Positions 45,063 to 64,000 of a stretch of 64,000 nt of DNA are shown piece after piece. Below the pieces are notes generated by a model. It saw only the letters and a list, made by a program, of their open reading frames with translations. It made no database searches and was not told where the DNA came from. A program made the position numbers and the translations under genes. Numbering within the stretch: position 1 is the stretch's first letter; every line of letters starts with the position of its first letter. This stretch comes from Desulfurispora thermophila DSM 16022. GTDB lineage: Bacteria > Bacillota > Desulfotomaculia > Desulfotomaculales > Desulfurisporaceae. The DNA is taken from the NCBI RefSeq assembly GCF_000376385.1, contig NZ_AQWN01000007.1:124001-188000 (forward strand), given 5' to 3'.

Positions 45063-45171
45063 CCAGGGAAAATTTTTCATGGAGGTGTAAAGCCTGGTCA
45101 TGGGGGTGGCCGGCTGCACAAAAACTAACGCTTGTTAGGTATTGTGAGCTTTTTTGAACCAGGTATTAAAT

Positions 45172-45945
45172 ATGCACGCCTATATTGCCATGCGCCCGGT
45201 TCCGGGGCCGGCCGTGCCGTTGCAATATAACTATTTAATTCAGTCGGCCATTTACTCCGCCCTGCCCCCCGAGTTGGCCGAGCATTTGCACGAGCGGGGC
45301 TATGAAGCCGGCGGACGCAGGTACAAAATGTTTGCCTTTTCTCGCCTGTTGGGTTGCTATGTGCTGGATCGGGAGGCCCGCACCATTAGCTTTTCTGATA
45401 AGGTGACTTTGGTGGTCAGTTCGCCCAATATCAAGTTTTTTCACTATTTGATTAACAATTTGCTCACCAGGAGCCACTTGCGTTTGGGTGAGGCCAGGCT
45501 GGCCATTGAGCACGTGCGCTTTTCCGAGCAGGTGGTGGAGGAGGAGACGCTGGTGGTGCGCACCCTTTCGCCGGTGGTGGCCTATAGCACACTGTTGCGA
45601 CCGGAAGGCGGCAAGTACACCTGTTACTACCAGCCGGGAGAAAAGGAGTTTGAGAGGATAGTGACGGCCAACCTGGCCAAAAAATATGTGGCCTATTACG
45701 GGGAACCAGTACCGGATGGTACGGTGCAGGTACGACCGCTGGACCGGCCCCGCCTGCATGTAATGGACTACAAGGGTTCGGTGGTGAAGGGGTACACCGG
45801 CCGCCTGCGGCTTATCGGTCCGCGGGAACTTTTGCAGATAGCTCTGGACGCCGGACTGGGCAGTAAAAATGCCCAGGGTTTTGGCTGTGTGGAGAAGGTG
45901 GAAGGGAGAAGAGAAAAGGATATTGGGGGAACGGTGTCTTGGTAG
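45172..45945 (+). CDS. cas6: CRISPR endoribonuclease Cas6
   Basis: A 257-residue RAMP-fold nuclease that cuts pre-crRNA inside the repeat and leaves an 8-nt 5' handle. The C-terminal glycine-rich loop GLGSKNAQGFGCVEKV is characteristic; the N-terminal ferredoxin-like half has a His/Tyr-rich active-site zone. ATG 45172 is favoured over TTG 45154, though neither has a good ribosome-binding site. Unlike usual I-B operons it stands 5.6 kb upstream of cas8b, separated by array 1 and an Rpn-type gene, so it is transcribed separately or with array 1. Confidence 0.93.
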   Translation: MHAYIAMRPVPGPAVPLQYNYLIQSAIYSALPPELAEHLHERGYEAGGRRYKMFAFSRLLGCYVLDREARTISFSDKVTLVVSSPNIKFFHYLINNLLTRSHLRLGEARLAIEHVRFSEQVVEEETLVVRTLSPVVAYSTLLRPEGGKYTCYYQPGEKEFERIVTANLAKKYVAYYGEPVPDGTVQVRPLDRPRLHVMDYKGSVVKGYTGRLRLIGPRELLQIALDAGLGSKNAQGFGCVEKVEGRREKDIGGTVSW

Positions 45946-45993: not shown

Positions 45994-46018
45994 TTAAGAC
46001 AGAGATAAAAGGCTGGTT

Positions 46019-46066
46019 TTGTCGTCGACCTCCAGTAGCGTAAAAATACCGGGGGGTCGACGACAA
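46019..46066 (+). promoter_or_regulatory. Conserved inverted repeat in leader 1
   Basis: TTGTCGTCGACC (46019-46030) and GGTCGACGACAA (46055-46066) are perfect 12-bp arms around a 24-nt loop. The same arms and a nearly identical loop occur in leader 2 (59378-59425). It may be a protein-binding site for adaptation or an RNA hairpin in the leader transcript. Confidence 0.75.
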
Positions 46067-46172
46067 TTGCTGGTGGCGTGAAGCCTTGGGAAATCAGGGT
46101 TGGTAAATTGTGTAGGTTTGCATCCAAAAAGCGCCCCTCACAGAGAGTGCTTATTTTTAGCGCCTCGGAACG

Positions 46173-49100
46173 GTTCGTAGCCTGCCTATAAGGAATGGAA
46201 ACCCTGGGGGACAAGGGATATGTGGAGTGTCGCCAGCTTGGTTCGTAGCCTGCCTATAAGGAATGGAAACTTAATAAAACTAATTATCCCGTTAATAGCA
46301 CCTTTAGTTCGTAGCCTGCCTATAAGGAATGGAAACTAGCTTTTATCTCGGACCATCACCTGTAAGCCTGGATGTTCGTAGCCTGCCTATAAGGAATGGA
46401 AACACCATTTTCTCCAGGTCATTCAAGTTTACCCGGCCTGTTCGTAGCCTGCCTATAAGGAATGGAAACACGCGGTGAAAGAGTGGCTGGAAGGACCCGG
46501 CGGGAAGTTCGTAGCCTGCCTATAAGGAATGGAAACGGTTGTCTAACAGACAGCTTTCGAGCCGGATAAGCGGTTCGTAGCCTGCCTATAAGGAATGGAA
46601 ACATGGGTGAGACGGGCCGGTATCGCACATCAAATACAGTTCGTAGCCTGCCTATAAGGAATGGAAACGCCTTCTCAATTACATACAGCTTCCCTTCCCG
46701 CATCCGTTCGTAGCCTGCCTATAAGGAATGGAAACACACGGTAAACCGGGCTAATTGTCCGGGGGCAGGTGTTCGTAGCCTGCCTATAAGGAATGGAAAC
46801 TCCGTCCCATGTCACCTTTCGGCCCAGCGCCTCTGCGTTCGTAGCCTGCCTATAAGGAATGGAAACAGGGCTACGTTCAGCTGTGTTGGTCACCAGACCT
46901 GAGTTCGTAGCCTGCCTATAAGGAATGGAAACTGCTTCTGTGCGAATTGAAGTCCGCCGTGGTGAAGAGTTCGTAGCCTGCCTATAAGGAATGGAAACAG
47001 CAGCAGGCTGGCACAGGTGTGGCGCAGCGAGTGAGTTCGTAGCCTGCCTATAAGGAATGGAAACCGCTCCGCGACCTCTACGCCACTGTCGAGCGTCCGG
47101 TTCGTAGCCTGCCTATAAGGAATGGAAACGCACATTGCGCCGGGCTAGCCGGGTGTTTTTTATCTGGTTCGTAGCCTGCCTATAAGGAATGGAAACTCTG
47201 GACTGTCCTTATAGGTTCCGAGGCCGGTGGAGTAGTTCGTAGCCTGCCTATAAGGAATGGAAACATGCAGACGGCCGTGTGCTGGTCGACAGGCTACAGG
47301 GTTCGTAGCCTGCCTATAAGGAATGGAAACTCCAGGTGGTGCAGGAGTACGGCGGCTCAATATCCGTTCGTAGCCTGCCTATAAGGAATGGAAACTTCCT
47401 CGGCAATCAACAACGTAAACCTTGGCCCAACGTTCGTAGCCTGCCTATAAGGAATGGAAACAAGCATTACCCGGTACAGGCGGGATGAAAGGAGCCCGGT
47501 TCGTAGCCTGCCTATAAGGAATGGAAACTCTGGCCGGTAGGTATGAGTAACTTATAAGGCTAAATGTTCGTAGCCTGCCTATAAGGAATGGAAACCCGAC
47601 CTCTTGACTTAACCCTATGCAAAGTGTATCCCTGAGTTCGTAGCCTGCCTATAAGGAATGGAAACATGTATCTGACCGATTTTATCATGGAAGCAAAAAG
47701 GTTCGTAGCCTGCCTATAAGGAATGGAAACATGAGCATATGAAACAGAAAGCACAGAAAGCCAAGTTCGTAGCCTGCCTATAAGGAATGGAAACTGACTT
47801 AGTTTTTGATATTTATTGTTTGGTTTCAGGGTTCGTAGCCTGCCTATAAGGAATGGAAACCGGGAGTGTGAGGTGCAGACTATGTTTCTGCCCCTGAAGT
47901 TCGTAGCCTGCCTATAAGGAATGGAAACTTCTGGTGGGAAGGCGATCCTGCGGAATGCCCCCTTTGGTTCGTAGCCTGCCTATAAGGAATGGAAACACCC
48001 ATTGATTAAATGTCATAAAAGCAAGTGTATCCTGGTTCGTAGCCTGCCTATAAGGAATGGAAACTCAAAAAAAATCGAGGGATGGTGGAGGCGAAAGAGC
48101 AGTTCGTAGCCTGCCTATAAGGAATGGAAACAGGGACCAAGAGTTCTCGGCCCCCCGGATGAATACCGTTCGTAGCCTGCCTATAAGGAATGGAAACCCC
48201 GGACCCTGGAAACTTGATCAGGGGTTACCATATGGTTCGTAGCCTGCCTATAAGGAATGGAAACCCACATTTTGTCTGTCACTGTCCCCGCCCTCCTGCT
48301 GGTTCGTAGCCTGCCTATAAGGAATGGAAACCCTTTTTTCCAGATACTGGGGGCCGCAAACCCGTGTGTTCGTAGCCTGCCTATAAGGAATGGAAACAAT
48401 CAATACCAAAGTGGTTAAAAAATCCTCTACCAAGTTCGTAGCCTGCCTATAAGGAATGGAAACTACCATGGAGGAACGCTGATATGCAACAGCAACACAG
48501 TTCGTAGCCTGCCTATAAGGAATGGAAACCCATTTCCTTTGAGCCGGCCACACTCAAGACCGTGTGTTCGTAGCCTGCCTATAAGGAATGGAAACTAAAT
48601 ATTAATAATCTTCCAGACCTCCGTAGGTCACCGTTCGTAGCCTGCCTATAAGGAATGGAAACCCTTTTTCAGTTTCCAACCCCGGTTGCTGGACCGGGTT
48701 CGTAGCCTGCCTATAAGGAATGGAAACCCGGGAGCAGGTGGGCAACGCCCCCCTTCCGCGCAGTTCGTAGCCTGCCTATAAGGAATGGAAACAGCTTCTG
48801 GTCAACGGCTTCACCCAGAAGTGCTATGTTCGTAGCCTGCCTATAAGGAATGGAAACCCCGCGCATTGCCACCGAGGTTCCTTCCTCCACCCGCGAGTTC
48901 GTAGCCTGCCTATAAGGAATGGAAACATATCATCATGCACCGACATATCTTCAGTTCCTTTCGTTCGTAGCCTGCCTATAAGGAATGGAAACGCTAAGAA
49001 GGCCGTCAGCCCGTCCTCGGTAACCGGGTTCGTAGCCTGCCTATAAGGAATGGAAACACGCCGTGCTGCTGCAGGTATGCCAAAGCCACAGCCACAGTTC

Positions 49101-49174
49101 GTAGCCTGCCTATAAGGAATGGAAACCCTCATGGGTATGGGCTTTTGCCGCTTCGCCCTCCGTGTTCGTAGCCT
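46173..49174 (+). CRISPR. CRISPR array 1 (45 full repeats, 45 spacers)
   Basis: The 30-nt repeat begins GTTCGTAGCCTGCC and ends TATAAGGAATGGAAAC; all 45 copies read the same by eye. Spacers are about 35-40 nt. The last unit is degenerate: at 49164 only GTTCGTAGCCT is kept, marking the old, leader-distal end, so the array is read left to right from the leader at 45988-46172. Typical clostridial type I-B repeat form with the GAAAC ending. Open frames here are artefacts of the repeat. Confidence 0.98.
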
Positions 49175-49532: not shown

Positions 49533-50501
49533 CTAATGCACAGTTTTCTTTTGTAGTTCCAACACTTCTTCCAGGGGCAGGCCGGTGATTTCGCTGACCA
49601 GTTGCGGGTCTAATCCTTTGCGCAGGGCGGCCAGGGCGCTTTCCTGTGCTTTTTTGAGCTCACCCTGAGCTATACCTTGCTGTATACCTCTTTGCTCGGC
49701 ATCGGCCATACTCTTCTCCAGTATCCGCTCAATATTGGTCACCATAACTTTTCCCTCCTCTGGCCCGGCTTTTTGTAGTATTTCCTCCACCTTCGCCTGT
49801 TCTTTCTCCGATAGATACGGCGCAATGATTTTGCGCAGGAAGGTTTTAAATCGCTGAAAGTCATCGGGGGTCAATTTTTGGAGTACGCGCTGCAGCCGGT
49901 GCAATGTTTTAAATACCTGCTTTAAGTTCCGGCTTTTGTCCAGCATGAACACAGCCGCAATCAGGTTGGCGAGGCGCATCAGCTCCCGGTCGCTGTAGCC
50001 ATGTACGCTGATTAGTTCATAGTGGAAGTTGAGCAAGTGCCCGGCAAACTGCTCACTGGCGGCCAGGATGTCCTGAAAGGATGTGGCCGCCGTCCAGCGG
50101 GGCTTTCCGTTGTACAGCACCAGGGGGATAATGGCCGGCAGGCGAAAGTGCTTGCTTTCCCGTTCCTTTTGCGGTGTGTTGTTATATATCTCCCGCCAGA
50201 TTTCCACCATGTACAGGAGCAGACGAAAGGGCATCTGGTAATCCACTGTGGACTGCAGTTCCAGCAGGAGGTAGAAGATCACTTCACCTTCAGTGCTTTT
50301 CAGCCGGTAGACTATGTCGGCCTCTTTGTCGGCAAATTCCTGGGTGATGTAGCTTTTGTCTACCAGGACCAGGCTTTGGGGGTCAATATTGTGCACCCAG
50401 GGTGCCGGCACAAAGCTGCGCAAAAGCTGCCAAAAAGCGTCTTTGTTCTTGAGCAAATATTTGTAGCCCTTGTCCTGCGGCTGGTGGACGGGGTGGGTCA
50501 T
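49533..50501 (-). CDS. Rpn-family recombination-promoting nuclease / putative transposase
   Basis: A 322-residue protein of the PD-(D/E)xK Rpn/transposase_31 group. The nuclease core reads KEADIVYRLK ... VIFYLLLELQS, giving Asp and Glu-x-Gln active-site residues. A helical C-terminal domain follows and ends with RGIQQGIAQGELKKAQESAL, a segment typical of the family. ATG 50501 has AAGGAGTG upstream, preferred to 50549. It is inserted between array 1 and the cas operon, on the opposite strand; such genes often spread by duplication. Confidence 0.88.
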   Translation of the reverse strand: MTHPVHQPQDKGYKYLLKNKDAFWQLLRSFVPAPWVHNIDPQSLVLVDKSYITQEFADKEADIVYRLKSTEGEVIFYLLLELQSTVDYQMPFRLLLYMVEIWREIYNNTPQKERESKHFRLPAIIPLVLYNGKPRWTAATSFQDILAASEQFAGHLLNFHYELISVHGYSDRELMRLANLIAAVFMLDKSRNLKQVFKTLHRLQRVLQKLTPDDFQRFKTFLRKIIAPYLSEKEQAKVEEILQKAGPEEGKVMVTNIERILEKSMADAEQRGIQQGIAQGELKKAQESALAALRKGLDPQLVSEITGLPLEEVLELQKKTVH

Positions 50502-50752
50502 CGGGCGGCACTCCTTCTGGCCTTGATTATACCACGGTGACTGAGGCACGAGAAGCTACCTGAAAAAAGAAAAACCACCGGCTAAAATGGTGGTGGTGAT
50601 TAATATTTTTTCTGTTTATCCCCTCCTGACAAAAGCAAAAAGCCCGCACCGGGCGGGCCTTGACAGGCTGTCACAGTTGTCTCATAATAAAAGTGGGAAT
50701 ACTGGTAACCAGAAACGGCTCGTTGCGCCTCACTGCCGAGGATTTCATCGCC

Positions 50753-51286: not shown

Positions 51287-51441
51287 AAAAAAACATCCTG
51301 CAGTTGTTTGTATAATTTTGCTGCAGGGGGCGGTGGTAGATAAGTCCTTGTAGGGAGGCTAATAGTCACTAAACATAAGCAAATGTTTCCATTCCTTATT
51401 TCTTGCCGCGGGGCAGGAAAAGGGAGTCTAGCCAGGGAGCA
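51287..51441 (-). ncRNA. crRNA-like small RNA with degenerate CRISPR repeat (putative Cascade autoregulator)
   Basis: Minus-strand unit of about 155 nt. It contains ATAAGGAATGGAAAC (51385-51399), identical to the last 15 nt of the array repeat and including the presumed handle ATGGAAAC; CCTGCC of the repeat also recurs (51412-51417) but pushed away by a 12-nt insert that makes a small GCC/GGC stem. The pseudo-spacer begins ATTTGCTTATG; the cas promoter has ATTTGCATATG at 51498-51508 (10 of 11). A CCTGCAG/CTGCAGG hairpin followed by seven T ends it. Likely processed by Cas6 and loaded on Cascade to repress cas8b, like CreR-type RNAs; not proved. Confidence 0.7.
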
Positions 51442-51447
51442 AGTATT

Positions 51448-51476
51448 ATCATATAAAAATTATTAATTTTTGGCAA
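51448..51476 (-). promoter_or_regulatory. Promoter of the crRNA-like RNA
   Basis: On the minus strand TTGCCA-N17-TATGAT, good sigma-A boxes with ideal spacing, predicting a start near 51441. It is divergent from, and 10 bp away from, the cas operon -35 box. Confidence 0.7.
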
Positions 51477-51485
51477 GATGATCTC

Positions 51486-51514
51486 TTGACAGGAATTATT
51501 TGCATATGTAAAAT
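51486..51514 (+). promoter_or_regulatory. cas operon promoter
   Basis: TTGACA-N17-TAAAAT: a perfect -35 and near-perfect -10 with optimal spacing, start near 51521, 100 nt before cas8b. The spacer between the boxes (51498-51508) is the segment matched by the pseudo-spacer of the minus-strand RNA; ATT precedes the match on the non-target strand, in the PAM position. An unusually strong promoter that would call for repression. Confidence 0.82.
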
Positions 51515-51620
51515 CAAAACAGATTGCATTTTTACTAATCATAACCAAATTAAAGGAGGTGAGGGGCGCGAATCCAGCCCGTCTGTTATGCAATCCAAAA
51601 GTGAAAAAATCAGGGGTGAC

Positions 51621-53396
51621 ATGCAAGTAGTATTCCCCAAAATAGGCCACTTCTGGCAGGATTCCGGTCTGGTAGGGCTGGTCAAAATTCTGGAGGAGCA
51701 GGAGCACGATGTGACGATAAATACAGACAGTCAGCAGCTGATCCTCAGCGGCTCTGGCCAGGCTATCCAGTCTCTGCTGGAAAAGGCCTACGATGCTGTG
51801 GTGGAGCGTTACTACAACGTATCCACCCGCAAACAGAGGGAAGAAACCCCCTACCAGTTTTACTATGACAGCCGGCTCGACCGCTTTATCAGTTTTCCCA
51901 AGAAAAAATCCTGCGGCATAGCCGAGATCATTTACAATAAGGCGGCCCGTCCCACCGGTTCCTCGGTAAAGTGGGTCTATAAAAGCGACAGAAAAGTGGA
52001 GCTGGAATACAAGGGCAAGAAAATTCGCCGCACAGTGGCCCATTTGCCCCCATCCCACGCTCACCTGCAAGAGCGGATGGATGAGTTTTTGAATGAGCAC
52101 GGCCTGGACATTACTACGGCCGGCCTGCTGCTGGACGGGCCCAATGCCGTGCGGCCCAATGTAAAAATAAAAGCGGCTGCTCCCTTGAAAAAAGCCAAAG
52201 GAAATTGCTTTTTATGCGGACAACCCTCTGACACCTTTGAAGAAGCCACCCAGACCACCTTCCCGCTCATAACTGGAACTTCCGGCGTCCTCTCTTTTAA
52301 CCCCATGGCCCGCAATCCGGAAAAGGTCTGCTGGAAATGCGCTTTTTTGGGCAAGTTCGTTCCGGCAAACGGTTTTTTTTACACTGCCGGTAAAGACATT
52401 TTTGCCTTTTTCCCTTACTCGGCCTCACTAAATAAAATGCTGGACGCTTTTGCTCCGCTGCACGAGGCCGAATATCAGGATCCTAACTATCTGTGTAACT
52501 TTGATAACAAGATCAAAGGATTTTTCTACCATGTGTTTGAGATTACCTTTGCTTTTCTCTATACCCTTTACGACAAGTTATTCCTACGGCAATCCGGGGG
52601 TGAGGAAAAGTCCGGTCTGCTGAATTACAATGAGCTTTTTGGTCTATTGGAAGATCGGGCGCCGCTGGAATTCTATGTACTGCACGCCCGCAAGAGAAGC
52701 GATACTTTTGCAGTAAAAACGCTCTGGCCTTTCCGTGAGACCGGTTACTTTTATCGTCTGATGTTCCGGGTGGAGGGGCATGAAACACCGGCTAAAACCG
52801 GAGATAATCGGGAAGCAGCGGGCGCCAGAGATGGAGAAACACAGATAAGGGGTGGAGAACAGAAAATCAGGGGTAACCGGGGAGTACAGATAGCCGAGGT
52901 AATGCGCCTTTTGGTGGATTATCGGCAAGAAAATGAAAAAAGAACCCTCATGCGCAATCGCATCTGCGAGCGGATACTGAAAAAACAGTCCATCCTGGAC
53001 CTGTTGGAAAAACATGTATACAGTGTGGAGACCAGTTATATCAAACCGCTGGTAGACTTTTTGCTCATTTACGAACCTGAGGTGCGAAAGGGTGATAGTA
53101 TGACCAGAGAAGAACAGGATGCGGCGGTAACTTTAGGCCGGCGCATTGGCACAGCGGTGGCGAAAAGTGAGCAGGGGAAAAAAGGCGACCTCTTTGCCCT
53201 GCGCAAAACCAGGAAACTGGTAGATTTTCTGGAGCAGATCAACCGCCTGCAGTTCAAGCTGGGCGGCGACCTGATTATCCCGCCCGACCTTTACGAGGGC
53301 AAACTCACCCAGGACAATTTCCAGGAATTTAAACAATTTTGCCTGATTGCCGCCTTGAACAGCTACTACGCGGCGGAGAACGAAAGCAGGAAGTAA
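51621..53396 (+). CDS. cas8b: Type I-B Cascade large subunit Cas8b (Cst1-like)
   Basis: About 591 residues. N-terminal VFPKIGHFWQDSGLVGLVKI and the two zinc-knuckle pairs Cys196/Cys199 (CFLCGQ) and Cys237/Cys240 (CWKCAF) define the CXXC-CXXC Cst1 group of I-B large subunits, which recognise the PAM and recruit Cas3. A low-complexity insert (GDNREAAGARDGETQIRGGE) lies late in the protein. Start is uncertain: ATG 51621 fits the family, yet the best ribosome-binding site AAAGGAGGTGAG (51552-51563) has no start at normal distance; ATG 51588 is in frame. Confidence 0.88.
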   Translation: MQVVFPKIGHFWQDSGLVGLVKILEEQEHDVTINTDSQQLILSGSGQAIQSLLEKAYDAVVERYYNVSTRKQREETPYQFYYDSRLDRFISFPKKKSCGIAEIIYNKAARPTGSSVKWVYKSDRKVELEYKGKKIRRTVAHLPPSHAHLQERMDEFLNEHGLDITTAGLLLDGPNAVRPNVKIKAAAPLKKAKGNCFLCGQPSDTFEEATQTTFPLITGTSGVLSFNPMARNPEKVCWKCAFLGKFVPANGFFYTAGKDIFAFFPYSASLNKMLDAFAPLHEAEYQDPNYLCNFDNKIKGFFYHVFEITFAFLYTLYDKLFLRQSGGEEKSGLLNYNELFGLLEDRAPLEFYVLHARKRSDTFAVKTLWPFRETGYFYRLMFRVEGHETPAKTGDNREAAGARDGETQIRGGEQKIRGNRGVQIAEVMRLLVDYRQENEKRTLMRNRICERILKKQSILDLLEKHVYSVETSYIKPLVDFLLIYEPEVRKGDSMTREEQDAAVTLGRRIGTAVAKSEQGKKGDLFALRKTRKLVDFLEQINRLQFKLGGDLIIPPDLYEGKLTQDNFQEFKQFCLIAALNSYYAAENESRK

Positions 53397-53409
53397 GGAG
53401 GTTTTTTTG

Positions 53410-54312
53410 ATGGAAAAGTTACAGGCTAAACAGGCCCGGGCGCTGACCATTACCTACCTGGTGCAAACCACGCTGGCCAGCTTGAACGGTTCGGACAAAG
53501 AGGCGGACAACATCTCCAGCATAAAAAAATTCACCCGCGGCACCGAGCAATACCCTTATGGCTCGGCGCAGTGGGTGCGGCGGGCTCTGCGGGACCAGCT
53601 GGCCAACCTGGGCTGGGAGCTTTCCGAAGGGGTAGCGGCCAGCATCGCCAAGGGGGCGGCCACCACCCAGCAGAAACCTGAACAGTACATTGATGATGAC
53701 CTGTTTGGCTTTATGGGTACCGAAAAGGGTGCAGACAACCAGAAGGGCTCTGCTACCAAGCGCACTTCGCCGGTCAGGGTTTCGCCGCTGGTGGCGGTGG
53801 ACAGGTACCTGGGCGATCTGGATTTTGGCACCAACTACATGAGTGTGCAGTCTGGGGGTACGCCCAACATTTATGAAACCGAAATACATTCCGGTCTTTA
53901 CCGGGGAACTGTTTTAATCGAGTTGGACCGGGTGGGTTGCGGTGAGGGGTTTGCTGCAGAACTGCCGGCCGGGGAAAAGGCCCGGCGGGTAAAAGCCCTG
54001 CTGGCCGCAGTGAAGAACCTGTGGTCCTCGGGGCGGCAAACCAGGTTTTTGGCCGATATATCACCCAAATTTGTGGCGGCAGCCCTGCTAAAAGTTAAAA
54101 ACCCCATTTTTCTGGAAGTAGTGCTGCCAGCCGCAGATGGTGTGCAGGTGGATTTATTGACCGAAACGGTCAACGACTTTGCCGGTGAAACCCTGGCTGT
54201 GGTTTTTGGTGCCAGACGGCAGCTATTTAAAACACTGCCGCCGGAGACCGTTTCACTGGGGGAAGCCTTTGCCCGCATGGAGCAGTGGGTGGAGGATTAT
54301 TACCTTGCGTAA
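53410..54312 (+). CDS. cas7: Type I-B Cascade backbone subunit Cas7 (Cst2/DevR)
   Basis: A 300-residue RAMP protein that coats the crRNA spacer in several copies. ALTITYLVQTTLASLNGSDK and KKFTRGTEQYPYGSAQWVRR at the start, and SVQSGGTPNIYETEIHSGLY in the middle, are typical of Cst2/DevR. ATG 53410 is used (AAGGAGG upstream); TTG 53407 is adjacent. It starts 13 nt after cas8b. Confidence 0.93.
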   Translation: MEKLQAKQARALTITYLVQTTLASLNGSDKEADNISSIKKFTRGTEQYPYGSAQWVRRALRDQLANLGWELSEGVAASIAKGAATTQQKPEQYIDDDLFGFMGTEKGADNQKGSATKRTSPVRVSPLVAVDRYLGDLDFGTNYMSVQSGGTPNIYETEIHSGLYRGTVLIELDRVGCGEGFAAELPAGEKARRVKALLAAVKNLWSSGRQTRFLADISPKFVAAALLKVKNPIFLEVVLPAADGVQVDLLTETVNDFAGETLAVVFGARRQLFKTLPPETVSLGEAFARMEQWVEDYYLA

Positions 54313-54327
54313 GGCCGGGTGAGAAAT

Positions 54328-55032
54328 ATGTATGCTTTTTTTGTTGAGGCCTATGCCAGCACAGCCTCCTTTCGCCTGCCGGAAGCGCACACCTTTCAGC
54401 AGACGCTGCCCCTGCCGCCCCTCACTGCCCTGCTGGGGTTGGCCGGGGCGGCGCTGGGCCTTCCCTTTGAACAAGCCATGGTCTGGCGGGAGGAAGGGCT
54501 GAAGTGCGGTGTGCAGGGCAGGAGTGGCGGAGAAGCCAGCGACCTGTGGAAATACCGCAAAATAGAATCCAAAAAGGTAATCTCGGCCGTCCTTACCCGG
54601 GAGATCCTGTGTGATCTGCGCCTGAAAATTGTCTATGCCCATGCCCGGAAAGAAAAGGTGGAAAGGCTGCGACAGGCTTTTTTAAACCCGGTTTATGCCC
54701 TGTCGGCCGGCACCAGTGATGACCTGATTAAAGTGTGCCGGGTAAGCGAAGTAGCCAGCGTTTCTGCCGCCGGGGAGAGGCATTTTTCTTACACCGTTTT
54801 GCCGGGAGATCAGAGTGCCAACTATCGTTCGGCAATCAAGTGTGAAGATCTACCCCTGTTGCATTCCGTGCGGGCACCGCGGGTTTTTCTTCTGCCGGTG
54901 GCCTTTGATTTCCAGGGGGAGGAACGGCGGGTCAAAGCCCGGGATCATTTCACCTTTGTGGATGCAGCGGTGGAACTGGTAGAGCCCGTGCCGGCCATCA
55001 GTCATGAATGGGGGGTTTTCCCTTTGCTATGA
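54328..55032 (+). CDS. cas5: Type I-B Cascade subunit Cas5
   Basis: A 234-residue RAMP protein capping the 5' handle of the crRNA. YAFFVEAYASTASFRLPEAH followed by QQTLPLPPLTALLGLAGAAL is the conserved Cas5 N-terminus. ATG 54328 (GGTGAG upstream) is preferred over GTG 54319. Its stop overlaps the cas3 start by 4 nt. It should also contact the handle of the crRNA-like RNA at 51385. Confidence 0.92.
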   Translation: MYAFFVEAYASTASFRLPEAHTFQQTLPLPPLTALLGLAGAALGLPFEQAMVWREEGLKCGVQGRSGGEASDLWKYRKIESKKVISAVLTREILCDLRLKIVYAHARKEKVERLRQAFLNPVYALSAGTSDDLIKVCRVSEVASVSAAGERHFSYTVLPGDQSANYRSAIKCEDLPLLHSVRAPRVFLLPVAFDFQGEERRVKARDHFTFVDAAVELVEPVPAISHEWGVFPLL

Positions 55033-57263
55033 GCTACTTGGCCAAATCCGATCAGACATATGCTGAACATCTGGAGCAGGCTTACCGGGCCTGGCGGGAA
55101 ACCATGGCGGCCAAAAAAAGGCTGGTGGAAAGGTACTGCCGGCGTTATGGCGTACCTGAACCCCGGTTCTGGCAAAGCTCGCTTCTGGCAGTGTTATTGC
55201 ACGATCTGGGCAAGATGACCGACCGTTTCCAGGCCATGATGCAGGCGGTGCGCCGGGGGGAAAAGTTTGATCGGCGGCAGTACTACCGGCACGAGCTTTT
55301 TTCTTTTGTTTTCACCATCCTGGCCGCCCGGGAGCTGGCTCAGAAAGAGGGCTGGCTACTGCAGGTGCCGGTAGAGGCGCTGGCGGTAGCCGGTCATCAT
55401 CGCCCGTTGGATACGGACCTGACATCCTTTGAGCGGGAAAAGCAGGCCCCCATACCTTCTTTTATCATGGGAGCCCTGCAGGAGGCTCTGCAACAGGCCC
55501 GGGAGATTATGGCCCGGGAAGGCTGGGAACTGCCTCATATCGATGAGGGGGCAGCACGGGAAAAACCTTACCCGGGCCTGGCCCGCCTGGTGAACAACGT
55601 CCTGGGACAACTGGTGGCCAGGGATGGACGGGAAAAAGTCCGGGACTTTTATATCTTGATAAAAGGGATTTTGCACTATGCGGACTGGTACGCCTCGGGC
55701 GGAGCTGCAGTGCGCTATGCCGTGGAAAGCGCACCGGAGCAGCTGGCGGTTGCCCTGCAGGAGCGGTGCCGGGAGAAGGGTATTGCTTTTCAGGGCTGGC
55801 GGCCATTTCAGGCCAGTATGGGTCGATACAGCGGGCACCTGCTGGCCGTGGCCCCTACCGGCAGCGGCAAAACCGAGGGAGCGTTGCTGTGGGCGCTGCA
55901 CAATGCCCGGCAAATGGGTGGGGCGAAAATAATCTACCTTTTGCCCACCATGAACACGGCCAACCAGATCTGGCAGCGTCTTTGTGATATTTTTGGCGTG
56001 GCCAATGTGGGCCTGACCCATTCAACAGCCAGCCTGTTTTTGCAGGAAGAAGAAAGCGACCTGGCGGAAACCTGGAAAAACAGGTGGGAGTATTTATTGC
56101 ACCAGGCTTTCATGAAGCCGGTGACGGTGGCCACAGTGGACCAGTGGCTGTCCTGCGGCTTTAATGCCGGGCGCTGGGTACTGAAAGAGATTAATGCCGC
56201 CAATGCAGTGATTGTGCTGGACGAAGTGCATGCCTATGATGGCTGGACGATGGGTCTTTTGGTAGCGTCACTGCGCCATTTTGCCGCCCGGGGCAGTCGT
56301 TTTCTCCTGATGAGCGCTACTCTGCCCAGAGGTCTGGTGGAGCTGTTTCAAGCGGCCCTGGGTGAGCCGGGATTGCTACGGGATGAAGAGCTATTAAATG
56401 CCAGCCGCAGCGTCTATCAGGTGGTGGATGCGCCCATGGAAAGCGCCCTGCCGGATATCCAGGCTGCGGTGCGGGCCGGTCGCAGGGTGCTGGTGGTGGT
56501 CAACACGGTGGAAAAATGTCAGCAACTAACCCGGGAGCTGGCGCCGTACCGGCCGGTTTGTTATCACTCCCGCTTTATCTTGCGGGATCGCAAGCGCATT
56601 GAAGAAAGCTTTGATCGCAGTAACCTGGTCATTGCCACCCAGGTGGTGGAGGTAGGGCTGGATATTGATTTTGACTGGCTGTTCACCGAATGTGCGCCGC
56701 CCGATGCCATAGTGCAGCGGGCCGGACGGGTGAACCGCTATCGCCATCCAAACCGGGATAGCCGGGTATTCATCTACAGGGCTTCTCCCGGCGGCGAAAA
56801 AATTTACAACCCCCTGGAAAACCCGGACTTGTTAGCGAAAACCCTGTCTGTTTTCCAGGCCCGGGCGGGACGGTTGAACGAACAGCAGCTAATCGAAATA
56901 GTGGAAACTGTTTATGATGGTTACCGGGTGGAGGAAAGCGAACCCTTCCGGGAGGCTCAAGAAGTTTACCAGCTGGCACAAAAAAACAGAATGGGCATAT
57001 TCGACAGCAGGTGGGAGGAGGACAGGGAGGTAACCCGTCTGGCTAAATACCAGACTGTGGCGGTTATACCCTGGTGTTTTTACGACCTGGTGCTGGAGCT
57101 TCCCCCTGCCGAACGGCGCTGGTACGAAGTGAAAGTGCCGCTCTGGTATTTCCGGGAGCACCGGCGGGCGGCCGGCAGTGGTCTGATGTTCTGTGACCTG
57201 GATTATGACCCCGCGCTGGGAGCAATATTGCGACCGGCGCAAGATAGGGATAACTTTATGTAA
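55029..57263 (+). CDS. cas3: CRISPR nuclease-helicase Cas3
   Basis: A 744-residue HD-helicase fusion. HD nuclease: His14, LLHDLGKM (His58-Asp59), GHH (His123-His124) and YADW with Asp219. Helicase: Walker A APTGSGKTEG with Lys281, DEVH box 398-401, SAT 429-431, QVVEVGLDID and QRAGRVNR. Both active sites look intact, so it should shred target DNA recruited by Cascade. ATG 55029 overlaps the cas5 stop. Confidence 0.96.
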   Translation: MSYLAKSDQTYAEHLEQAYRAWRETMAAKKRLVERYCRRYGVPEPRFWQSSLLAVLLHDLGKMTDRFQAMMQAVRRGEKFDRRQYYRHELFSFVFTILAARELAQKEGWLLQVPVEALAVAGHHRPLDTDLTSFEREKQAPIPSFIMGALQEALQQAREIMAREGWELPHIDEGAAREKPYPGLARLVNNVLGQLVARDGREKVRDFYILIKGILHYADWYASGGAAVRYAVESAPEQLAVALQERCREKGIAFQGWRPFQASMGRYSGHLLAVAPTGSGKTEGALLWALHNARQMGGAKIIYLLPTMNTANQIWQRLCDIFGVANVGLTHSTASLFLQEEESDLAETWKNRWEYLLHQAFMKPVTVATVDQWLSCGFNAGRWVLKEINAANAVIVLDEVHAYDGWTMGLLVASLRHFAARGSRFLLMSATLPRGLVELFQAALGEPGLLRDEELLNASRSVYQVVDAPMESALPDIQAAVRAGRRVLVVVNTVEKCQQLTRELAPYRPVCYHSRFILRDRKRIEESFDRSNLVIATQVVEVGLDIDFDWLFTECAPPDAIVQRAGRVNRYRHPNRDSRVFIYRASPGGEKIYNPLENPDLLAKTLSVFQARAGRLNEQQLIEIVETVYDGYRVEESEPFREAQEVYQLAQKNRMGIFDSRWEEDREVTRLAKYQTVAVIPWCFYDLVLELPPAERRWYEVKVPLWYFREHRRAAGSGLMFCDLDYDPALGAILRPAQDRDNFM

Positions 57264-57321
57264 CCAGTTGATATGCTCTGAGTAGCGTGGCGATTTTTTT
57301 GTTCTATCGGGCCGGCAGGGG

Positions 57322-57837
57322 GTGGCGGGTATTTCTCTCCAGGAAATCTCGGTCAGCGGTACGCTGATCTGGTATTACTATATTTGCCCGCGGGAAGTGT
57401 GGCTGATTGGTCACCAGGTTACACCGGATCAAGATGATGCCCATGTGAGTCTGGGCCGCTTCCTCCAGGAGCATTCCTATCCCCGGGAGCGCAAAGAGCT
57501 GCAAGTGGGAAGCAGCAAGATGGATATATTTCGCATCAGCGGGGATGAGCTGGTGGTGGGGGAGGTGAAGAAAAGCTCCCGCTACCGCCAGAGTGCCCGC
57601 ATGCAGCTGGCCTTTTATTTATGGGAGCTGAAACAGCGCGGGGTGCTGGCCCGGGGTGAGCTGCGCTTTCCGCAGGAAAAACAGCGGGAAGAGGTGGTGC
57701 TGGACCGGCAGACGGAAGAGGAGCTTAAGCAGGTTTGCCGGGAAATCCTGCGCCTTTTATACCTGCCCCGCCCGCCGGTTCCGCGCCGCATCAGCTTTTG
57801 CGCCAGGTGTGCCTACGGGGAGTTCTGCTGGGCATGA
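57322..57837 (+). CDS. cas4: Adaptation nuclease Cas4
   Basis: A 171-residue PD-(D/E)xK exonuclease with an iron-sulfur cluster. YYICPREVWLIGHQ gives the first Cys, and CARCAYGEFCWA the last three; GEVKKSSRYRQSARMQLAFY is the nuclease E-x-K motif followed by the QxxxY helix. GTG 57322 has GGGGG upstream. Cas4 trims pre-spacers and selects the PAM with Cas1-Cas2. Confidence 0.93.
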   Translation: MAGISLQEISVSGTLIWYYYICPREVWLIGHQVTPDQDDAHVSLGRFLQEHSYPRERKELQVGSSKMDIFRISGDELVVGEVKKSSRYRQSARMQLAFYLWELKQRGVLARGELRFPQEKQREEVVLDRQTEEELKQVCREILRLLYLPRPPVPRRISFCARCAYGEFCWA

Positions 57838-57969
57838 GACAGGCGTGCCTTTATTGCCTGTAATAAAGATGGGCATGTTATTGCCCTGCATTTGGCCCAT
57901 ATGGGCCCCGCGCAGGCGGCCGGGGGGCGGGGAGGCTATGTCGGAGTTCATGGCGTGGAGGGGGAAGGT

Positions 57970-58962
57970 GTGAAAAAGACCTATTTTCTGTTTTCCAGCG
58001 GGGAGCTGTCGCGCAGGGACAATACCCTGTGCTTTACTTCGGAAAAGGGCAGGCGGTACATTCCGGTGGAGGACACCGGCGAGATCATGATTTTCGGTGA
58101 GGTGGATGTAAACAAGCGCCTTTTGGAGTTTCTTTCCCAGCACGAGATAGTGCTGCATTTTTTTAGCCATTACGGTTACTACATGGGCTCATATTATCCC
58201 CGTGAACATTTAAACTCGGGCTACATGACCCTGCGGCAGGCGGAACATTACCTGGACGAGGCCAAAAGGCTGGCTCTGGCCCGGGAGTTTGTGCGCGGAG
58301 CGGCCAAAAACATCCGCCAGGTGCTCAAATATTACCAGGGGCGGGGCAAGGATGTGAATGGGCAGCTGCAGGCAGTGGAAAACCTGCTGCCCACCATTGA
58401 CAGTTGCGGCGACCCGGCAGCGCTGATGGCCATAGAGGGTAATTTGCGCGATCACTATTACCGGGCCTTCGATGCCATTATCGGTCTGCCTGATTTTGTA
58501 TTTCAAGAGCGCAGCCGGCGTCCGCCCAAAAATTACTTGAACACATTGCTCAGTTTTGGCAACTCCATGATGTACACCATCTGCCTGAGCGAGATCTACA
58601 AAACCCATCTGGACCCGCGCATTGGCTATCTCCATGCCACCAACTTCCGCCGCTTTACACTCAACCTGGATGTGGCGGAGATATTTAAGCCGGTTATTGT
58701 GGACAGGCTGATTTTCAGCCTGCTGGGCAGAAAGATGATTGGCCGGGATGACTTTGAGCGGGGTACGGAAGGGATAGTGCTCAAGGAAAAAGCGCGGCGC
58801 ACTTTTTTGGAAGGGATGGAAGAAAAGCTGAAAACCACCATCAAGCACCGGGAAATCGGTCGGGTAGTTACCTATCGCCGCCTGATTCGGCTGGAGCTTT
58901 ATAAGCTGGAAAAGCACCTGATGGGTGAAAAGCCTTATGAAGCCTTTGTGGCCAGGTGGTAG
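57970..58962 (+). CDS. cas1: CRISPR integrase Cas1
   Basis: A 330-residue integrase. Catalytic residues by family pattern: Glu156 in MAIEGNLRDHYY, His222 in GYLHATNFRRF, and Asp234/Glu237 in LNLDVAEIFKPVIVDR. GTG 57970 is chosen from GGGGGAAGG just upstream and the family-typical MKKTYFLFSSGELSRRDNTL start. The 130-nt gap after cas4 contains no other gene. Works as a tetramer with Cas2 at the leader. Confidence 0.95.
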   Translation: MKKTYFLFSSGELSRRDNTLCFTSEKGRRYIPVEDTGEIMIFGEVDVNKRLLEFLSQHEIVLHFFSHYGYYMGSYYPREHLNSGYMTLRQAEHYLDEAKRLALAREFVRGAAKNIRQVLKYYQGRGKDVNGQLQAVENLLPTIDSCGDPAALMAIEGNLRDHYYRAFDAIIGLPDFVFQERSRRPPKNYLNTLLSFGNSMMYTICLSEIYKTHLDPRIGYLHATNFRRFTLNLDVAEIFKPVIVDRLIFSLLGRKMIGRDDFERGTEGIVLKEKARRTFLEGMEEKLKTTIKHREIGRVVTYRRLIRLELYKLEKHLMGEKPYEAFVARW

Positions 58963-59091
58963 AACAGACGTGGTGCTTTGCTACCCATATAGAGGTGAAA
59001 ACAGTGTTATCGCCCGTATAAGCGGGGTTTGCGCCATCTTGGACTGTATGGATTACTCGCTGAAAACACAGGTTGTGGGAGATGACGTTAA

Positions 59092-59355
59092 TTGTTTGTA
59101 ATCCTGGTGTACGATGTAGCCCAGCGGCGGGTGGCCAGGGTGTTGAAAAAGTGCCGCCAGTACCTGCACTGGGTACAGAATTCTGTGCTGGAGGGAGAAA
59201 TATCCGAGGCCAACCTGAAAAAGCTGAAAATGGAGCTGGAGAGGATAATAAACAAGGAAGAGGATTCGGTGATCATCTACCACCTGCGCACTACCCGGTA
59301 CTCCTCCCGGGAAATTATGGGATTGCAAAAGGGCGGGGATGAAAATATAATCTAA
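59092..59355 (+). CDS. cas2: CRISPR adaptation protein Cas2
   Basis: An 87-residue ferredoxin-fold protein. MFVILVYDVAQRRVARVLKK contains the conserved Tyr-Asp of the first strand, followed by LKKCRQYLHWVQNSVLEGEI. TTG 59092 is the only start consistent with the family N-terminus; GGGAGATGA lies 7 nt upstream. Its last codons hold the promoter boxes of leader 2. Confidence 0.93.
   Translation: MFVILVYDVAQRRVARVLKKCRQYLHWVQNSVLEGEISEANLKKLKMELERIINKEEDSVIIYHLRTTRYSSREIMGLQKGGDENII
59323..59351 (+). promoter_or_regulatory. Promoter of CRISPR array 2 inside the end of cas2
   Basis: TTGCAA-N17-TATAAT overlaps the last codons of cas2. Same spacing and position relative to the leader palindrome as in array 1. 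The sequence after it (CTAAGACAGGGATG) also matches leader 1 (TTAAGACAGAGATA). Confidence 0.72.
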
Positions 59356-59377
59356 GACAGGGATGCTCCGGGCGGAT

Positions 59378-59425
59378 TTGTCGTCGACCTCCAGTAGCGC
59401 AAAAATGCCCGGGGGTCGACGACAA
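59378..59425 (+). promoter_or_regulatory. Conserved inverted repeat in leader 2
   Basis: TTGTCGTCGACC (59378-59389) and GGTCGACGACAA (59414-59425), arms identical to leader 1, loop nearly identical (both begin TCCAGTAGCG). About 110 nt lie between it and the first repeat, as in leader 1; the leader end (TTTTTAGCGCCTCG) is shared too. Confidence 0.75.
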
Positions 59426-59533
59426 CTGCAGGGGGCTTCAGCCCCGGAAAAACAAGGATTTGGTAAAATATGTGGGTTTGTATTGAGAAAGCACCCCTCG
59501 AAGAGAGGGCTTGTTTTTAGCGCCTCGCAACGG

Positions 59534-62500
59534 GTTCGTAGCCTGCCTATAAGGAATGGAAACCCGGAGTGCCAAATAGTACCGCTAGCAGACACCGGCA
59601 AGTTCGTAGCCTGCCTATAAGGAATGGAAACTGGTTCCCGTAAACGCCGTCAAACCTCTAATCGAAAGTTCGTAGCCTGCCTATAAGGAATGGAAACCCC
59701 ACATGAGGTTTCCGACCGGGTAATTGCACTCAGTTCGTAGCCTGCCTATAAGGAATGGAAACTGGATCTGTTGCGCCCCCAATCCGGACTTGGCCAGGAG
59801 TTCGTAGCCTGCCTATAAGGAATGGAAACGACGCCATCGGCAAGGGAATTTCCGGTACAGAAATGTTCGTAGCCTGCCTATAAGGAATGGAAACCTGGCC
59901 TTGGGCCGGCAGTCCTGACCGTCGCCGGCCTGTTCGTAGCCTGCCTATAAGGAATGGAAACCAGATCCAACCTGTCCCTGTGCTCCTAATACCCTAAGGT
60001 TCGTAGCCTGCCTATAAGGAATGGAAACCCGGCGTGACGGCTGTAACTAACCCGGTGGCGACGACCGTTCGTAGCCTGCCTATAAGGAATGGAAACATGT
60101 CACCTATGAGGGGCTAAAACGGGATATGCGTTGGTTCGTAGCCTGCCTATAAGGAATGGAAACCTGCACTTATATCACCAATCATGCCTGTTGTAAGTGG
60201 TTCGTAGCCTGCCTATAAGGAATGGAAACCCTGCCTAACATTCACCAAACAATCAATCACTTCTTTCAGTTCGTAGCCTGCCTATAAGGAATGGAAACTA
60301 CCATATGACATATATTTCGCGCAACATCTTTCGGTTCGTAGCCTGCCTATAAGGAATGGAAACCCACAATAAGAACAAGGTTCATTTACCTTTGTAGTTT
60401 GTTCGTAGCCTGCCTATAAGGAATGGAAACGCACCCTGTATGGAGGTATCGTATAAATCAGCTTCCTCGTTCGTAGCCTGCCTATAAGGAATGGAAACTT
60501 GGGGTACCCTTCTTCATCGTACCCCGACAGGATTGTTCGTAGCCTGCCTATAAGGAATGGAAACCTGCTATCGGGATTATAACCAAATTCTTCTGCCCAG
60601 TTCGTAGCCTGCCTATAAGGAATGGAAACTATAATATAATAAAATAAATAAAGGAGTGATAATGAGTTCGTAGCCTGCCTATAAGGAATGGAAACAAATA
60701 CCAAATGCGATATAATAAATTGTTAGACAAGTTCGTAGCCTGCCTATAAGGAATGGAAACATTTCTGCAGGTTTGCTTTCTGCAGGTTGGCCCATCGGTT
60801 CGTAGCCTGCCTATAAGGAATGGAAACTCTTTTCCTCCTTTCTCTGCCGCATTTCCCCGGCGGCGTTCGTAGCCTGCCTATAAGGAATGGAAACGGGAAA
60901 TAAAAAAAGCGCTCTAGTGAGCGCTAAGAGTTCGTAGCCTGCCTATAAGGAATGGAAACCTTCCTGCAGGTCAGCACCCTGCAGGTTAGCCTCTCGCAGG
61001 GTTCGTAGCCTGCCTATAAGGAATGGAAACCTCCGGTTTCGGCTAGGGTCAGTGCCCGTGTGCTAGGTTCGTAGCCTGCCTATAAGGAATGGAAACCCGC
61101 CCCTGCCGTGATGTCTTCAGAGCTTTGGGGCAGTTCGTAGCCTGCCTATAAGGAATGGAAACCTCGTGCTCCCGGAAATGGGAAATGTTTCCGGTTTTAG
61201 TTCGTAGCCTGCCTATAAGGAATGGAAACAAAGATACAACGAACTGGAGCTGGACCTGTTGGTTAGTTCGTAGCCTGCCTATAAGGAATGGAAACTTCGC
61301 ATTCTTTGCACCATTTACAATCATCTTCCTCGTTCGTAGCCTGCCTATAAGGAATGGAAACCCAACAAAGCAGGTGCAGGCCTGTTCGTGTCAATACGTT
61401 CGTAGCCTGCCTATAAGGAATGGAAACCCCGCAAGGTGCTTTGCACGACGGCCTTCCGATGCGTCGGTTCGTAGCCTGCCTATAAGGAATGGAAACGTAT
61501 TTGCCCTTGGATAATGTCTATTATGCCACTACTCAGTTCGTAGCCTGCCTATAAGGAATGGAAACCGGATGCACCAGCGCCTTGACCGCTTCGGGCAGTA
61601 CGTTCGTAGCCTGCCTATAAGGAATGGAAACCATTATTTCCCTCCACTTTACGCAGTGCCTCGCTTTGTTCGTAGCCTGCCTATAAGGAATGGAAACCCC
61701 CTACCAGTGGAACCCAACACCATACTTGAACGACATGTTCGTAGCCTGCCTATAAGGAATGGAAACCCATCGGTGGGATGTAGGTGATCAGATCCCCGTT
61801 ATAGTTCGTAGCCTGCCTATAAGGAATGGAAACGGCCTTGAAACGCTGACAGGAGGAAAAGCCAAACTTGTTCGTAGCCTGCCTATAAGGAATGGAAACT
61901 ATCTAACCAACACCGCAAGGCCGTTCGCCATCCAGAGTTCGTAGCCTGCCTATAAGGAATGGAAACAGGCCGAGGGGACCAATACCGATGAATACGTAAT
62001 TTGTTCGTAGCCTGCCTATAAGGAATGGAAACACGCAGGAAGCTACCGGCCATGTTGGATACATCAGGTTCGTAGCCTGCCTATAAGGAATGGAAACCCC
62101 GGACCTGGCTGGCATTAGCACAAATGAAATGAGTTCGTAGCCTGCCTATAAGGAATGGAAACCAATGTTGAACGGGACCGGGCCATCCCGGCCCGGTTGG
62201 GTTCGTAGCCTGCCTATAAGGAATGGAAACAATATTTAATTGTGCCGTCGCGCATAAGCGCAACGGTTCGTAGCCTGCCTATAAGGAATGGAAACCCCTT
62301 TCCTGGCTAGGGTCTGGTTCCACGCTGGCAAGTTCGTAGCCTGCCTATAAGGAATGGAAACACCAACATGCCTGCAGTTCTTTTGGAATGTTTGTTGTTC
62401 GTAGCCTGCCTATAAGGAATGGAAACCTGCACCGCGCCCGCCAGATCAAATTTTCCGCGAGAGTTCGTAGCCTGCCTATAAGGAATGGAAACCTGGAGAG

Positions 62501-64000
62501 GTTGAAAAGCCGCAAGTTCATCATGGCCGTTCGTAGCCTGCCTATAAGGAATGGAAACGCCCAAGCGTCAGAGAAAAGACGGGCCGAAAAGTAGGCGTTC
62601 GTAGCCTGCCTATAAGGAATGGAAACGGGGACGAAAATTTTCTGGATGGTTTAGCTAATGAAAGTTCGTAGCCTGCCTATAAGGAATGGAAACCCGCGAG
62701 CTTCGCCCTTCGACGGCTTTCCAGCCCGGTAGTTCGTAGCCTGCCTATAAGGAATGGAAACCCGGGGACGACCCGATGCGGACCATCGCCGACCTGGGTT
62801 CGTAGCCTGCCTATAAGGAATGGAAACTGCACAAAAGCCACCATGCGAATAGCCTTATTTTCGTTCGTAGCCTGCCTATAAGGAATGGAAACTACCACAG
62901 GAGGCGGTTTTGGTGCAAATCAATCTTACGTTCGTAGCCTGCCTATAAGGAATGGAAACTACTCCTGACAATAGGCTTCTATTGCCAGGTTAATAGCGTT
63001 CGTAGCCTGCCTATAAGGAATGGAAACTGGAAGAAAGCGTCATGCGGACGCTGGCCACCGTGAGTTCGTAGCCTGCCTATAAGGAATGGAAACAGCTGAA
63101 GCGCAGGCACCCGGAGCTGTTCTGCAAAGCGTTCGTAGCCTGCCTATAAGGAATGGAAACTCTAAAAAGACAACTTTTCCTTCTTTTTCGCCCAGCAGTT
63201 CGTAGCCTGCCTATAAGGAATGGAAACTTGAGTACGGCTGCCGTGCGCCTATTGCCGGCGAAGGTTCGTAGCCTGCCTATAAGGAATGGAAACCCTGCTA
63301 CTACCAGCGACATGAGCACTACCCCCATAGTTCGTAGCCTGCCTATAAGGAATGGAAACCCACCGTCCCGGTTTTCAGCGCAGCCAGTCTGATGGTTCGT
63401 AGCCTGCCTATAAGGAATGGAAACACGAGTATGGAAAATAGATTACAAAGATTTTATGAGTTCGTAGCCTGCCTATAAGGAATGGAAACCCGCATCTCCC
63501 TGCATGATTTTCTCGAGCAGTTCCCGTTCGTAGCCTGCCTATAAGGAATGGAAACGGGTGAAATTCAATGGAATCGTAAACTATTCCAACTGTTCGTAGC
63601 CTGCCTATAAGGAATGGAAACCATTCCCCGCCGCCGCCGCAGTCACTTTTGACCAGGGTTCGTAGCCTGCCTATAAGGAATGGAAACTCCTTTCGAACTT
63701 AAATTTAATAGCGAGTTTTGGAGTTCGTAGCCTGCCTATAAGGAATGGAAACAACTTTGGGCGGCTAAAATACTACCAATCGCGGAAAGTTCGTAGCCTG
63801 CCTATAAGGAATGGAAACTGCTTTGAAGTGGATTAACAAACAGTATCCTATTCCGTTCGTAGCCTGCCTATAAGGAATGGAAACCCCCAGTTGTGCAGGA
63901 TGAAATTCCGCTGCCCCAGGGTTCGTAGCCTGCCTATAAGGAATGGAAACCGGCTGGGCCTGGTGCGAATATGCCGACTGCCCGGTGGTTCGTAGCCTGC
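59534..64000 (+). CRISPR. CRISPR array 2 (67 full repeats plus one cut by the window end)
   Basis: Same 30-nt repeat as array 1 (GTTCGTAGCCTGCC ... AAGGAATGGAAAC) with spacers of about 34-41 nt. It begins directly behind leader 2, 179 nt after cas2, and is still perfect at the window edge (repeat 68 starts at 63988), so more units follow. No interruption or degenerate repeat was seen. Orientation as array 1. Confidence 0.98.

Follow-up and report, generated by a model that had tools for sequence, protein, structure and literature searches.

The primary paper on CreR appeared in Cell Host Microbe in 2023. CreR RNAs, described for type I and type V-A CRISPR-Cas systems, are crRNA-like RNAs from a mini-CRISPR with degenerate repeats, and the reviewed work covers their sensing of the crRNA supply and of anti-CRISPRs (PMC12737573, PMC12948488). 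The CreTA/CreA modules of haloarchaeal type I-B systems share a psi-R1, psi-S, psi-R2 anatomy with degenerated repeats, and CreA guides Cascade to repress a toxin without Cas3 cleavage (PMC9458426). Engineered guides of at most 26 nt likewise repress transcription, with no Cas3 cleavage, in the type I-B system of P. thermoglucosidasius, for which TTA is the best PAM (PMC10551041); TTA is also a listed I-B PAM (PMC8482600). The type I-B Cascade of T. maritima depends critically on guide positions 1-5 and 7, and with a mismatch at position 7 its binding was lost or nearly lost; position 6 tolerates a mismatch without harm, since every sixth base stays unpaired (PMC13199841). Outside type I, the Francisella novicida Cas9 scaRNA is a degenerate-repeat RNA that represses transcription through ~15 nt that are complementary to a 5′ untranslated region (PMC9458426).

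Here we describe creR, a minus-strand unit in a 64,000-nucleotide stretch (the window) of the Desulfurispora thermophila DSM 16022 genome, a 2.8-Mb genome related to Pelotomaculum. The unit is very probably a CreR-type guide RNA gene for the cell’s own type I-B Cascade, divergent from the cas8b operon. The CreR circuit is already known, and creR is, as predicted here, a further example of it with a corrected target. Unlike CreR as described, it has its predicted target within the transcribed leader, and there on the opposite strand from the transcript; its guide and target belong to a co-varying lineage across related genera; one of its repeats carries a 12-nt replacement that is not seen in the aligned relatives; and its function is predicted from sequence. 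With CreA it has in common the anatomy and the proposed repression without Cas3 cleavage, but its predicted repressed gene is cas8b, with no toxin gene between. The P. thermoglucosidasius repression resembles it in the TTA PAM, the short guides and the presence of Cas3, whereas the creR guide is natural, 18 nt long and aimed at its own operon. The scaRNA differs in belonging to a type II system and in targeting a lipoprotein operon rather than cas genes.

A crRNA-like unit lies between array 1 and the cas8b operon

The type I-B system of the window consists of cas6, array 1, cas8b-cas7-cas5-cas3-cas4-cas1-cas2 (51588-59355) and array 2, with cas6, cas8b, cas7 and cas5 all present as open frames (Table 1). 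The leaders of arrays 1 and 2 (46015-46173 and 59374-59533) are duplicated and ~80% identical. A gene for an Rpn-family nuclease (YhgA-like, Transposase_31) lies on the minus strand at 49533-50549, between array 1 and creR.

Table 1. Coordinates of the CRISPR-Cas system, the creR unit and its predicted target, numbered from the first letter of the window.
Feature	Position	Strand	Details
cas6	45154..45945	plus	open frame
CRISPR array 1	46173..49174	plus	45 full repeats, then truncated terminal repeat
Putative intrinsic terminator	51287..51328	minus	7-bp stem CCTGCAG/CTGCAGG, 17-nt loop, seven T; from sequence and fold
Psi-repeat 2	51339..51366	minus	ACTATTAGCCTCCCTACAAGGACTTATC; 3′ handle lost; aligned in 7 loci
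Psi-spacer	51367..51384	minus	18 nt in repeat register, ATTTGCTTATGTTTAGTG; target match extends to position 19 (51366)
Psi-repeat 1	51385..51417	minus	CCTGCC + 12 nt (replacing one T) + ATAAGGAATGGAAAC; intact 8-nt crRNA handle ATGGAAAC
creR promoter, predicted	51448..51476	minus	-35 TTGCCA 51471-51476, N17, -10 TATGAT 51448-51453; consensus scan 10/12
cas8b operon promoter	51486..51514	plus	TTGACA-N17-TAAAAT, 11/12 consensus; -35 lies 9 bp from creR -35
Target proposed earlier	51498..51508	plus	ATTTGCATATG; masked 12/16, ATT PAM, mismatch at 7
Protospacer, predicted creR-Cascade site	51532..51550	minus	ATTTGgTTATGaTTAGTaA; mismatched to psi-spacer only at 6, 12, 18
PAM 5′-TTA-3′	51551..51553	minus	TTA at 7/7 creR targets found
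Shine-Dalgarno-like sequence of cas leader	51552..51559	plus	AAAGGAGG; directly adjoins target
cas8b	51588..53396	plus	start codon inferred from relatives, MQSKSEKIRGDMQVVFPK...; Pfam Cas_CXXC_CXXC
cas7 (Cst2/DevR, type I-B)	53407..54312	plus	
cas5b	54319..55032	plus	
cas3	55008..57263	plus	HD + helicase domains
cas4	57322..57837	plus	
cas1b	57892..58962	plus	
cas2	59092..59355	plus	
CRISPR array 2	59534..64000	plus	67 repeats in window, extends past window end

The creR unit lies outside the arrays, between array 1 and cas8b, and is divergent from the cas operon. Read along the minus strand, it runs from a promoter through a degenerate repeat, a short guide and a second degenerate repeat to a terminator-like hairpin, so that, as in CreR units, ectopic degenerate repeats with a crRNA handle sit beside the cas operon. 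A sequence-only reading of this DNA had already described the minus-strand promoter, the cas promoter facing it and a hairpin with seven T, all of which are present, and it had correctly noted that the 15 nt at the end of the CRISPR repeat are kept: ATAAGGAATGGAAAC at 51385-51399 is identical at 15/15 positions to the 3′ end of the repeat GTTCGTAGCCTGCCTATAAGGAATGGAAAC. The genome has 166 forward copies and no other on the reverse strand, and this one has no mismatches where shuffled windows gave ~1.3 matches at up to 3 mismatches. The 12-nt insert of that reading is there too, but it replaces one T (CCTGCC-T-ATAAGG), making the net insertion 11 nt. The single degenerate repeat and pseudo-spacer that it reported are both real, but the second repeat at 51339-51366 had been overlooked, and this repeat limits the psi-spacer to ~18 nt, compared with 34-41 nt for the array spacers.

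Across the seven aligned loci, the core AAGG-AT--AAA of psi-repeat 1 is invariant and TAG--T-CCTA is conserved in psi-repeat 2, where the window has the segment TTAGCCTCCCTACAAGG at 51346-51362. The creR promoter has a counterpart at the equivalent position in relatives, mostly TTGCAA-N17-TATNAT, and the divergent creR/cas8b promoter pair as a whole is matched there. The terminator-like hairpin is absent from the list of the consensus terminator scan, its 17-nt loop being too long for that scan, the predicted fold of the creR RNA is no more stable than those of shuffles (z -0.66), and an Rfam search of the creR region gave only sub-threshold matches to CRISPR-DR2 and RsmY.

The creR guide matches the cas8b leader in 5-nt blocks

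To search the window for targets we scanned it with the guide, ATTTGcTTATGtTTAGTgA, and masked every sixth position. The psi-spacer matches 51532-51550 at 16/16 positions outside 6, 12 and 18, with positions 1-19 compared, and the next-best masked match in the 64-kb window scores 12/16. The best masked score among 4000 Markov-simulated regions of equal composition was 14/16. Genome-wide, 51532-51550 is the sole perfect masked match with the PAM; allowing up to 3 mismatches adds only two sites, the psi-spacer itself and one elsewhere, each with 3. The guide is thus partially complementary to its cognate cas promoter region, as in CreR systems, here beside a TTA PAM.

The target, counted over 17 guide positions, starts 19 nt past the cas promoter’s -10 box, spans about +12 to +30 of the cas8b transcript and lies ~37 nt before the start codon inferred for cas8b. 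The pairing covers the full length of the short psi-spacer in 5-nt blocks, which does not agree with the seed-only pairing that had been suggested before. Between the strong Shine-Dalgarno sequence, which lies 28 nt from the inferred cas8b start, and that start there is a GGGC/GCCC stem (window 51552-51588) that also occurs in relatives; in seven stretches, one of them mis-chosen, this hairpin had no covariation and was no better than shuffles.

Guide and target co-vary among relatives

Order- and class-level searches for relatives led to the same genomes. A creR unit upstream of cas8b recurs, with place and strand unchanged, in six relatives: G054, G021 (P. terephthalicicum), G011, G063, G107 (Pelotomaculum sp. 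UBA10960) and G420. In the loci with E <1e-100, the best segments of Cas8b are 50-71% identical. In five of the loci with a creR unit (the window, G054, G021, G011 and G420) the guide pairs with its own leader, always beside TTA, although the sequences differ: guide blocks 2/3 are TTATG/TTAGT (window), TTATG/TGTGT (G054) and TTTGC/ATTAT (G021). The guides of these three each match their own leader at 15/15 scored positions. When guides and targets were swapped, G021 scored only 7-10/15 with the other pairing loci, and the window with G054 scored 13/15. One further mismatch, at position 9, occurs in each of G011 and G420. The seed and TTA are kept in G107, where an indel breaks the pairing past position 9. 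The target starts 14-21 nt past the -10 box in six loci. An alignment of relatives, the comparison by which the sequence-only reading had hoped to see pseudo-spacer and promoter covary, thus found the handle, psi-spacer and target conserved, with complementarity kept by co-variation of psi-spacer and target, as for CreR.

In G063 a deletion has removed the target from the leader of the cas operon, and an internal TAG stop lies in the reading frame of cas8b. Target loss and operon decay appear together at this locus (L015 / L065, G063:C97).

An unmasked scan recovered seven guide-target pairs with TTA, in which 10 of the 13 mismatches fall at position 6 or 12, a clustering with a probability of ~1e-7 in a hand calculation that assumes even spread, five of the loci sharing ancestry. 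A Fisher test (p ~5e-11) was biased, some pairs having been found with positions 6 and 12 masked, and the unmasked scan was therefore used for the claim on mismatch positions. At a threshold of at least 15/17, all six matches of the real scan had TTA, and distinct control scans with scrambled guides gave four matches, one of them with TTA; at 14/17 the background of the unmasked scan is ~4-11 matches. Taken together, the sequences of these relatives show guide-target co-variation, a 6-nt periodicity of mismatches, TTA and similar promoters around the predicted targets.

We consider it rather probable that these units form a long-lived creR lineage in Pelotomaculum-like Bacillota I-B systems, set within a divergent promoter pair (8-10 bp between the two -35 boxes of the loci read), with a three-block guide of ~18 nt that co-evolves with its leader target and drifts freely at positions 6, 12 and 18. 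If so, the free drift at these positions would be a natural evolutionary read-out of base flipping by Cascade. The loci add a clear group of CreR guides that co-evolve with their targets in the type I-B systems of Bacillota, and co-variation, free positions 6/12/18 and PAM together make a signature that finds CreR targets and rejects false ones from sequence alone.

TTA is also a PAM prediction for the D. thermophila type I-B Cascade. Spacers of array 1 had no match in phages, and those of array 2 had only chance-like matches from AT-rich or repetitive spacers (E 0.03-0.4), as had the array of G054. Three spacers searched against IMG/VR gave no protospacer, and whole arrays searched against relatives returned essentially other arrays. 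Since none of these protospacers is convincing, the PAM is not confirmed from the system’s own spacers.

Two loci with other architectures

Two further guides, in the unrelated loci G206 and G207, are built differently, and each is less certain given the background of the scan. In G206 (L061, G206:C20, reverse complement, about 178-440) a genuine array closes with a spacer and a degenerate terminal repeat, and this final spacer matches the DNA just upstream of cas6 at 15/17 with a TTA PAM. G206 is a possible array-borne CreR, and it suggests that creR-type guides arise from array-end spacers. In G207 (L071, G207:C3, 6862-7137) a crRNA-like single unit is followed ~70 nt downstream by its target, a 16/17 match with a TTA PAM. 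The target precedes a small ORF of 67 aa from the first ATG, or 55 aa from the ATG after a ribosome-binding-like GGAGG, and the unit is absent from the equivalent place in the close relative G294. Instead of being a CreR, the G207 unit may belong to a toxin module of the CreTA/CrePA kind.

Alternative readings of the unit

A classical antisense RNA would pair with the cas8b mRNA leader beside the Shine-Dalgarno sequence and block translation. In its favour, the guide complements the mRNA leader and its target abuts AAAGGAGG, but we regard this reading as very unlikely, given that it leaves unexplained why mismatches cluster at positions 6 and 12, why the crRNA handle is retained and why every target has TTA. 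An antisense sRNA is continuously complementary and Cas-independent, whereas the mismatches here are 6-nt-periodic and TTA accompanies each target. Moreover, the G420 target is ~200 nt from the gene, and in G206 and G207 guide and target share the strand of the downstream gene, so that the guide is in sense orientation and RNA-RNA antisense pairing with its mRNA is impossible there.

Less probable still is binding between the -35 and -10 boxes of the cas promoter by seed-only pairing, as the sequence-only reading had proposed. That site (51498-51508) would be an ideal place for promoter occlusion, and the 10/11 identity from position 1 exists. However, its masked score is at chance level, at least 12/16 being reached in ~8.5% of simulated regions; its PAM is the non-preferred ATT and not TTA; it has a mismatch at the seed-critical position 7; and it has no counterpart in relatives, whose -35/-10 spacers differ. 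We rejected it as the main target. The leader site 51532-51550, and not the -35/-10 site, is the real target predicted for creR. The proposal of a CreR-type autorepressor is itself strongly supported by the kept and co-varying handle, psi-spacer and target, but the target then named for it is unsupported.

An addiction module like CreTA, in which the guide represses a toxin and derepression punishes the loss of Cascade, has the same guide anatomy of two degenerate repeats and a short guide (PMC9458426). The creR target, however, lies between the cas promoter and cas8b, ~37 nt before the start, where there is no room for a toxin gene; no toxin gene being under the targeted promoter, we exclude CreTA at the D. 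thermophila locus and think it highly improbable as an account of creR. Least credible of all is the idea that the unit is merely what is left, without function, of the end of an old CRISPR array. This would account for the degenerate repeats but not for the way in which the handle, the short guide, the second repeat, the promoter and the target stay in place across relatives whose Cas8b best segments are 56-71% identical, nor for the co-variation of guide and target.

Proposed mechanism of autorepression

As a CreR-type guide, the creR transcript would probably be processed by Cas6 at psi-repeat 1 into an RNA that carries the handle ATGGAAAC and the 18-nt guide, with a predicted 5′ end at 51392 (ATGGAAACATTTG...). 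Cascade carrying this short guide would then bind the DNA of the cas leader at ~+12 to +30 beside the TTA PAM, pairing in 5-nt blocks set apart by flipped-out positions 6, 12 and 18. The guide is half the normal length, and, judging from the I-B crRNAs of at most 26 nt, Cas3 would probably not be triggered and the complex would act as a transcriptional block. The leader-bound Cascade would stand in the way of RNA polymerase leaving the cas promoter. The handle, the short guide, TTA and the 5-nt-block pairing past the start site make an anatomy that fits published I-B behaviour.

By analogy with published CreR work, free Cascade would in this way hold down its own production, and creR would be outcompeted by ordinary crRNAs, or by anti-CRISPRs inactivating Cascade, so that cas expression would rise. 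creR offers a concrete case for how short natural guides may regulate without self-cleavage.

The -35 boxes of creR and cas8b (window 51471-51491) are 9 bp apart, and those of the relatives read are 8-10 bp or somewhat more apart. With divergent -35 boxes this close, the two promoters may also compete for RNA polymerase.
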